A stretch of DNA of 64,000 bases from Betaproteobacteria bacterium (GTDB lineage: Bacteria; Pseudomonadota; Gammaproteobacteria; Burkholderiales; Rhodocyclaceae): NCBI GenBank assembly GCA_016194935.1, contig JACQAO010000014.1:1-64000 (forward strand). Reading direction: 5' to 3'. The translations under genes and the position numbers were made by a program. Positions 54,130 through 55,969 of this stretch are shown piece by piece; within the stretch, counting starts at the first letter, position 1; each line of letters begins with the position of its first letter. The notes under the pieces are model-generated. The model was given only the letters and a program-made list of their open reading frames with translations. It ran no database searches and had not been told where the DNA came from.

Positions 54130-54765
54130 ATGCCGCCCACGCTGTTTCGCCACGCCGTTTTCGAGACCTCGGTCGCCACGCCGGTCAATTTGCCGGCGGC
54201 TTCGGCGCTGACCCCGGAGATTGCTTTTGCCGGACGCTCCAACGCCGGCAAATCCAGCGCCATCAATACCCTGGCGGGACACACCCGGCTGGCCTTTGTC
54301 AGCAAGACGCCCGGCCGCACCCAACTCATCAATTTTTTCCGTTTACCCAGCGGCGCCAGCATGGTCGATCTGCCCGGCTATGGCTATGCGGCCGTGCCGG
54401 AGGCCGTCCGCAAGCAATGGCAGGGACTACTGGAACATTACCTGACACGGCGCGAAAACCTGATCGGCCTGGTGCTCATCATGGACGCGCGCCGCCCGCT
54501 GACCGAATTGGATATCCAGATGATCCACTGGTTCCTTCCGACCGGAAATCCGATCCATATCCTGCTCACCAAATCCGACAAGTTGTCACGCCAGGAAGCC
54601 ACACTGACCTTGCGCACAGTACGCGCAGCCATTGCTGCCTACGGCGGGCAGATCACGGCGCAGTTGTTTTCCAGCCTGAAAAAAACCGGCATCGAAGAGG
54701 CTGAGCAGATGGTCGGCGCGTGGCTGGCGGAGGCGCCTGCGGCGGAAGTGGGTGAAGGAATCTGA
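54130..54765 (+). CDS. engB: Ribosome biogenesis GTPase EngB/YsxC
   Basis: The 211-residue GTPase has G1 GRSNAGKSSAIN, G3 DLPGYG, G4 TKSDKL and a switch region SKTPGRTQLINFF. It acts in 50S assembly. The pairing with cytochrome c4 upstream is common in proteobacteria. Its stop is closely followed by a structured region read from the other strand. Confidence 0.96.
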   Translation: MPPTLFRHAVFETSVATPVNLPAASALTPEIAFAGRSNAGKSSAINTLAGHTRLAFVSKTPGRTQLINFFRLPSGASMVDLPGYGYAAVPEAVRKQWQGLLEHYLTRRENLIGLVLIMDARRPLTELDIQMIHWFLPTGNPIHILLTKSDKLSRQEATLTLRTVRAAIAAYGGQITAQLFSSLKKTGIEEAEQMVGAWLAEAPAAEVGEGI

Positions 54766-54777
54766 GGGAATCTGAGC

Positions 54778-54901
54778 AAAAAAAAGCCCCCGGTCAAAGG
54801 GGAGGGGACCGGGGGCCAATTGCCTTAATTCGCGTAAACTCGGAATCGCGGCACCCGCTCAGGGAGGTGAAGCGGGAGATAGTGCAATACCATCTGCACT
54901 T
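54778..54901 (-). ncRNA. Candidate small RNA with anti-Shine-Dalgarno loops and intrinsic terminator
   Basis: Read on the minus strand, the segment shows three hairpins. The first is AGTGCA/TGCACT (54900-54881). The second is CCCGCT/AGCGGG (54876-54854), with loop UCACCUCCCUG. The third is a 10-bp GCCCCCGGUC/GACCGGGGGC stem (54816-54786), with loop CCCUCCCCUUU and followed by eight U. The second loop contains UCACCUCC, identical to the 3' tail of 16S rRNA. No minus-strand gene lies upstream (hemB points the other way), so the terminator needs its own transcript. The 5' end near 54901 is a guess from a GATAAT box at 54913-54908. Confidence 0.7.
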
Positions 54902-54946
54902 GAGATAATTATCTTTGAAAATAGTTCCAACATTTTTATTTTTTGA

Positions 54947-55969
<1,023 letters not shown>

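Follow-up and report, generated by a model that had tools for sequence, protein, structure and literature searches.

The predicted RNA in the engB-hemB gap

The window (the whole stretch of DNA analysed here, 64,000 nucleotides) carries engB, encoding the ysxC/yihA GTPase, at 54130-54765 and hemB at 54956-55969, both on the plus strand. A predicted RNA of about 118 nt lies between them on the minus strand (54895-54778); among its four hairpins are one with a CCUCCC loop and a terminator whose loop is C-rich, followed by eight U's. Its convergent neighbour, engB, flanks the RNA in other orders of the class too; its divergent neighbour, hemB, is usual only among nearer (Burkholderiales-type) relatives. 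The 5' hairpin (54877-54895; AGAUGG-UAUUGCA-CUAUCU, 6 bp in the fold) is probably where the RNA begins, at about 54895, judging from the spacing to the -10 element described below. It is followed by hairpin 1 (54854-54876), with the stem CCCGCU/AGCGGG and the anti-Shine-Dalgarno-like loop UCACCUCCCUG; by a middle hairpin (54822-54852) that is more extended and more irregular in the window than in relatives (GCCUUAAU/AUUAAGGC); and by the terminator stem-loop (54786-54816), which has a long GC stem and the C-rich loop CCCCUCCCCUUU and ends in the eight-U tract (eight T's in the DNA, 54785-54778). The 119-nt stretch 54896-54778 folds with -50.9 kcal/mol (z -4.8), and none of 200 shuffles folded as well.

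An earlier note on this DNA had described a GC-rich stem with eight T's on the minus strand, two 6-bp hairpins upstream of it and no minus-strand gene feeding the terminator; these are present as described, at 54816-54778 for the stem and T's and at 54876-54854 and 54895-54877 for the hairpins, with no gene on that strand reading into the RNA. The plus strand of this gap also gives a weak match to the Neisseria sRNA IR_84 (RF02861; 54770-54931, 26.6 bits, cut-off 51); no IR_84 match was found in the one Neisseria hemB locus searched.

Family identity and conservation among nearer relatives

Comparison with Rfam, which the earlier note had proposed as a check, gives the RNA a name. The model of RF02837, "anti-hemB", matches 54778-54879 on the minus strand with 59.5 bits (cut-off 49.5), and this is the sole Rfam family above its cut-off in the 64 kb. 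By this covariance score and by its antisense place in the engB-hemB gap, the locus is an anti-hemB sRNA, a member of an already catalogued family. The Burkholderia cenocepacia member, ncS04, has been described as a 105-nt RNA with a RACE-mapped 3' end, a northern blot and Hfq binding (PMC5688073), and the note's view of the locus as an Hfq-type sRNA with C-rich, anti-Shine-Dalgarno-like loops agrees with this identity. The ncS04 level is given as not significantly changed in seven conditions, osmotic stress included and none of them by name envelope stress (PMC5688073, Table 2), a result that leaves stress control neither more nor less likely. The window RNA is like RF02837 and ncS04 in its score, its minus-strand place between engB and hemB, its hairpin 1 with CCUCCC and its terminator; it is unlike them in having a longer middle hairpin, and the promoter class of ncS04 is not stated in the accessible part of PMC5688073.

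Among the nearer relatives, RF02837 is over its cut-off in 50 of 61 genomes and reaches E<=0.001 in 56 of them (own genome included). A set of 80 titled loci was picked by HemB similarity alone, the best matches being Propionivibrio and other Rhodocyclaceae, a group to which the host would accordingly belong, and was searched with a model, R1, made from the window and loci L001-L030 (31 sequences, all betaproteobacterial copies). R1 matches lie antisense to and upstream of hemB in 56 of the 80; at the 24 loci without one, nothing was found at E<=1 with R2, a model made from copies outside the order (see below). Loss of the RNA in relatives that keep engB-hemB synteny, named in the earlier note as evidence that would speak against an sRNA, is not what was seen, the RNA being kept in 49 of the 55 loci with engB directly upstream of hemB and present in 7 of the remaining 25. 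The syntenic loci without it are L073, L078 and L084, all three from Accumulibacter, and L088, L117 and L147. Tandem copies of the RNA are seen in Nitrosospira briensis (L125; 1676-1778 and 1800-1901), and tandem model matches occur elsewhere, four each in G231:C33 and G323:C3 and two each in G210:C7 and G322:C1.

CCUCCC is present in 53 of 56 relatives, as against 21 of 56 for the 16S-identical 8-mer UCACCUCC, so that what is conserved is the loop CCUCCC and not full identity with the 16S tail; a C-rich terminator loop is recognized by a simple pattern in 38 of the 56. The earlier reading of the hairpin 1 loop as exactly the 3' end of 16S rRNA is correct in that UCACCUCC lies within the E. 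coli 16S tail, GGATCACCTCCTTA, but is overstated given how seldom the 8-mer is kept. No 16S gene was found in the genome's own assembly.

The structure covaries. Two alignments were made with MAFFT and are not fitted to any model: A1, of 31 sequences, and A6, of 39 of the 58 betaproteobacterial copies, extended 5' and scored on RNAalifold's own consensus. Two-sided changes are seen in 9 of 22 pairs in A1 (23 cells; shuffles 3.9) and in 19 of 27 pairs in A6 (113 cells; shuffles 31.5), where the 5' hairpin has them in each of its 7 pairs. Hairpin 1 is almost invariant in the betaproteobacterial set and variable in other orders. For the latter, a cross-order MAFFT alignment put stem 1 in the wrong place and recovered the terminator alone, and a model-fitted alignment, A3, was used in its place; it has two-sided changes in 21 of 22 pairs (182 cells vs 47.1; slid controls <=39), with a lean towards the structure to which it was fitted.

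Promoter and sigma factor

Two features that the earlier note had missed are the link to engB, taken up below, and an AlgU/RpoE-type (ECF sigma) promoter. On the minus strand, strict pattern matches place a -35 element, GAACTA, at 54922-54927 and a -10 element, TCTCA, 16 nt past it at 54901-54905; the published AlgU consensus is GAACTT-N16/17-TCtgA (PMC10651043). The strict pattern, GAAC[TC]N-N15-17-TCNNA, searched in up to 100 nt upstream of the RNA copies, is found at 46 of 58 betaproteobacterial copies (spacer 16 in 38, 17 in 8) and at 25 of 41 copies elsewhere (spacer 16 in 23, 17 in 2). The means for mononucleotide shuffles are 0.51 and 0.30, and the opposite strand has it in 0 of 58 and 0 of 41. 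Those 41 rows represent 36 loci (four rows from L211, two each from L173 and L152), with weak matches such as L152 and L161 counted. With a looser pattern the figures are 50 of 58 against 2.05 in dinucleotide shuffles, and 27 of 41 against 1.17.

The genome encodes RpoE (TIGR02939; 321.7 bits, cut-off 236.15). A match to a consensus does not prove that the sigma factor is used; taken with the relatives, the promoter suggests that the RNA is switched on by envelope stress. There is in addition a sigma70-like match at 54983-54956 on the minus strand, about 60 bp upstream of the putative RNA start.

engB as the common neighbour

In 274 genomes of the class, RF02837 matches at E<=0.001 in 124 and over its cut-off in 14 (own genome in both); because 3 of 14 control genomes also match at E<=0.001, the score is by itself unspecific at that level, and position is therefore what counts. 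Among the matches listed, 76 genomes (own included) have both a best RF02837 match and a place for engB, and in 53 of these the match lies within 600 bp of the engB 3' end, 48 of the 53 being convergent with engB; of the remaining best matches in the same 76, 17 are on another contig and 6 are more distant. From the named relatives and from the families that match there, the G-numbered genomes appear to be Gammaproteobacteria in the GTDB sense, f185 the Pseudomonadaceae and f38 the Xanthomonadaceae.

Sixty engB loci of other orders were then chosen by engB similarity from the 68 places, apart from that of the window, listed down to G192, leaving out G247, G201, G272, G127, G100, G241, G129 and G253. 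R1 matches at 36 of the 60 (E<=0.01), a proportion that may be slightly flattering because five of those left out (G247, G272, G127, G100 and G241) have their best RF02837 match on another contig. There are 39 R1 matches at these loci, 36 of them within 600 bp of engB and 34 both convergent and within 600 bp of its 3' end. In 32 of the 60 loci polA lies on the far side, pointing towards engB, and hemB lies within 4 kb on the 3' side of engB in none. From the R1 matches and polA at these loci, the common arrangement is polA -> RNA -> <- engB, and in the relatives of the window hemB occupies the place that polA has elsewhere. With the Rfam cut-offs the RNA is recognized in only 2 of the 60 loci; the family is therefore under-annotated.

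The training sequences of the model R2 all come from outside the order; 35 of the 41 belong to the engB loci and the other 6 to L211, L212 and L214, which had been fetched through sub-threshold matches to sX13. The window is absent from this training set, and R2 finds the RNA there with 80.3 bits (E 8e-16), as the only match at E<=1; it likewise matches all 13 of the betaproteobacterial loci tested (of 30, L001-L030) at E<=7.3e-12. R2 and A3 both descend from R1 matches and so are not independent of R1. What stands independently is position, orientation and promoter; upstream of hairpin 1 the models extend by no more than about 11 nt. Across 200 genomes of the phylum, R2 reaches E<=0.001 in 22, a number that includes the own genome and nine from outside the class. 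At 20 of these loci that were examined (L226-L245), engB lies beside the match in 5, all within the class, and tblastn found none of polA, engB or hemB at the nine loci outside it; R2 at E<=0.001 is thus unspecific alone, and no extension beyond the class is claimed. Four of the outside matches (L237, L238, L242 and L244) open with runs like CCTCCCCTCCCTCC before the terminator, and presumably resemble known C-rich sRNAs of alphaproteobacteria.

This distribution bears on the reading implied by the family name, in which the RNA would regulate hemB (or engB) in cis as an antisense RNA. In most nearer relatives the RNA does lie antisense in the engB-hemB gap, and some copies keep hemB with no engB in reach (L010, L030, L251 and L256; L005 is at a contig end). 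A review also gives hemB as a predicted target of Bc7 (PMC6321483), which from the Rfam title 'Burkholderia RNA 7' would be the RF02837 family. Against this, the RNA accompanies engB in other orders where hemB does not, and in four order-level genomes it lies clearly away from hemB: engB adjoins on the same strand in G040, G056 and G049, and neither gene adjoins in G060 (G038, with its RNA at a contig end, was not scored as away from hemB). Moreover, the consensus promoter seen for hemB (54915-54942) is outside the RNA, so that a transcript started there would have no overlap with the RNA. A cis-acting role is accordingly considered improbable.

Relation to ErsA, sX13, Spot 42 and RF02278

Three known sRNAs were compared with the window RNA. 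ErsA (RF01719) is like the window RNA in its adjoining engB, its AlgU-type promoter (the looser pattern is found in 3 of 3 ErsA-type loci) and its C-rich terminator loop, and is unlike it in having polA on the other side, where the window has hemB. The window RNA has a promoter of the AlgU type (GAACTA-N16-TCTCA), lies between engB and hemB instead of polA and engB, and scores 13.1 bits with the ErsA model (cut-off 50). AlgU control of ErsA has been reported (PMC5819304, PMC7264166), and ErsA is described as controlled by AlgU/T and as repressing oprD translation with Hfq (PMC7264166, PMC5819304, PMC8575079). Sub-threshold RF01719 matches occur in 9 genomes; 6 of them overlap RF02837 matches on the same strand (G231, G327, G124, G204, G216 and G115), and that in G094 lies 356 bp from engB, convergent with it and overlapping an R2 match, while nothing comparable is seen for those in G149 and G317. 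Five genomes of ErsA's own family are listed: G378 and G450 each have a single R2 match at E<=0.001, flanked by polA and engB, in G386 the R2 match is elsewhere, and G222 and G382 have none at that level. In G222, where RF01719 is over its cut-off, R2 gives ErsA 23.9 bits within the locus, a match unlisted genome-wide. L239 reads like ErsA. Kinship with ErsA is likely on these comparisons.

sX13 (RF02232) is like the window RNA in the C-rich loops of hairpin 1 and terminator, and differs in that polA lies beside it and engB is absent in two loci, in the AlgU pattern (0 of 2 loci, with the looser pattern) and in its reported independence of Hfq. Its three hairpin loops are C-rich, as are hairpin 1 and the terminator of the window RNA, the middle hairpin of which is not; the window scores 12.3 bits with its model (cut-off 50). 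Ten sub-threshold RF02232 matches were found, 3 overlapping RF02837 matches, 2 more overlapping R1 matches 3' of engB, and 5 overlapping neither. R2 gives the genuine sX13 loci 29.0 and 23.9 bits, ranking second genome-wide in G072 and seventh in G225, figures that may be raised by the six sequences from L211, L212 and L214 in its training set. Repression by sX13 requires its C-rich loops and G-rich motifs near starts, and it acts without Hfq; compensating changes in loop and mRNA failed to restore control (PMC3771888). Kinship with sX13 is plausible. In two sX13-bearing genomes the best R2 match is another RNA, a double hairpin of about 80 nt with C-rich loops (L223 1501-1580 and L224 1501-1580), with neither polA nor engB found beside it; it is possibly a paralogue.

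Spot 42 (RF00021) has the matching arrangement in E. coli K-12, polA -> spf -> <- engB, and differs in that a C-rich hairpin loop is not seen in its sequence. R2 gives it 17.7 bits (E 0.078), the window scores 13.0 bits with its model (cut-off 80), and no sequence bridge between the two was found in 274 genomes at E<=0.001; with position alone in agreement, Spot 42 was set aside as a relative.

The fourth comparison is with RF02278, the class of toxic RNAs to which the earlier note had thought the RNA might belong, and which would act here by blocking ribosomes generally. Toxicity in E. coli has been reported for RF02278 RNAs (PMC4603805), which have a similar hairpin with a CCUCC loop as well as a C-rich terminator loop. 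The two models cross-match weakly: of the 45 RF02837 matches in relatives that are sub-threshold or second copies, 17 overlap RF02278 matches, and R2 gives 25.2 bits (E 0.034) at the genome's second RF02278 locus. Shared design or distant kinship of the two families is therefore possible. The window itself, however, scores 12.3 bits with RF02278 (cut-off 50), and has an additional middle hairpin where RF02278 has two hairpins (PMC5688073); the promoters differ, the strict AlgU pattern being found at 0 of 8 RF02278 loci; R2 has no match at E<=1 in three such loci (L031-L033); and the genome carries a separate RF02278 RNA of 61.8 bits (G000:C67:53469-53534, plus strand). Membership in the toxic class is thus not borne out, and a general block of ribosomes by the window RNA is considered as improbable as a cis-acting role. 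The second RF02278 locus in the genome, G000:C41:42760-42820 (minus strand), scores 44.9 bits, below the cut-off.

That there is no sRNA at all, only an engB transcription terminator and chance hairpins, is very improbable: the locus starts 16 bp behind the engB match, but its U-tract serves the minus strand, the structure, loops and promoter of that strand are conserved, and the Burkholderia member is a mapped transcript (PMC5688073).

Proposed function and wider family

The reading that best fits is of an envelope-stress-induced, Hfq-type anti-hemB sRNA, the C-rich loops of which block ribosome-binding sites, and we regard it as likely. Envelope stress would free the sigma factor RpoE (AlgU), which would transcribe the RNA of about 118 nt from the promoter at 54927-54901; Hfq may stabilize it through the U-tail, and the CCUCCC loop and C-rich terminator loop would pair in trans with the G-rich Shine-Dalgarno regions of several mRNAs, a pairing that, by analogy, would keep ribosomes from them. 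Family identity, covarying structure, conserved loops, the AlgU-type promoter, the RpoE gene and the place beside engB were observed here; the expression and Hfq binding of ncS04, the loop-dependent repression by sX13, and the AlgU control and Hfq-dependent repression of ErsA may by analogy apply to the window RNA. Against the stress-induced, Hfq-type reading stand the unchanged ncS04 in seven conditions, the Hfq-independence of sX13 and the failure of compensating changes to restore its control, the two sX13 loci without the promoter, the sigma70-like match on the minus strand and the six syntenic loci without the RNA.

We further propose a wider group of C-rich sRNAs at the engB/polA locus, to which the window RNA would belong in that R2, built from other orders, finds it. 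There is a reasonably good chance that anti-hemB, ErsA, sX13 and dozens of RNAs from other orders, as yet absent from catalogues, form one ancient sRNA family of the Beta/Gammaproteobacteria, with a fixed place next to engB (and polA), an ancestral promoter for the envelope-stress sigma factor RpoE/AlgU and C-rich loops that act on ribosome-binding sites, Spot 42 being maybe an enteric replacement or a far-diverged member. In the literature searched, which takes in the accessible parts of papers and few of the subscription journals, no earlier link among these RNAs and no RpoE sRNAs in Burkholderia were found.

Three points add to what is known of the family: the presence of engB beside the RNA in other orders, an AlgU/RpoE-type promoter and the suggested kinship with ErsA and sX13. 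Anti-hemB, an RNA named for its neighbour, thereby gains a likely inducer, envelope stress acting through RpoE, and possible relatives that are better studied, and its function therefore becomes directly testable.
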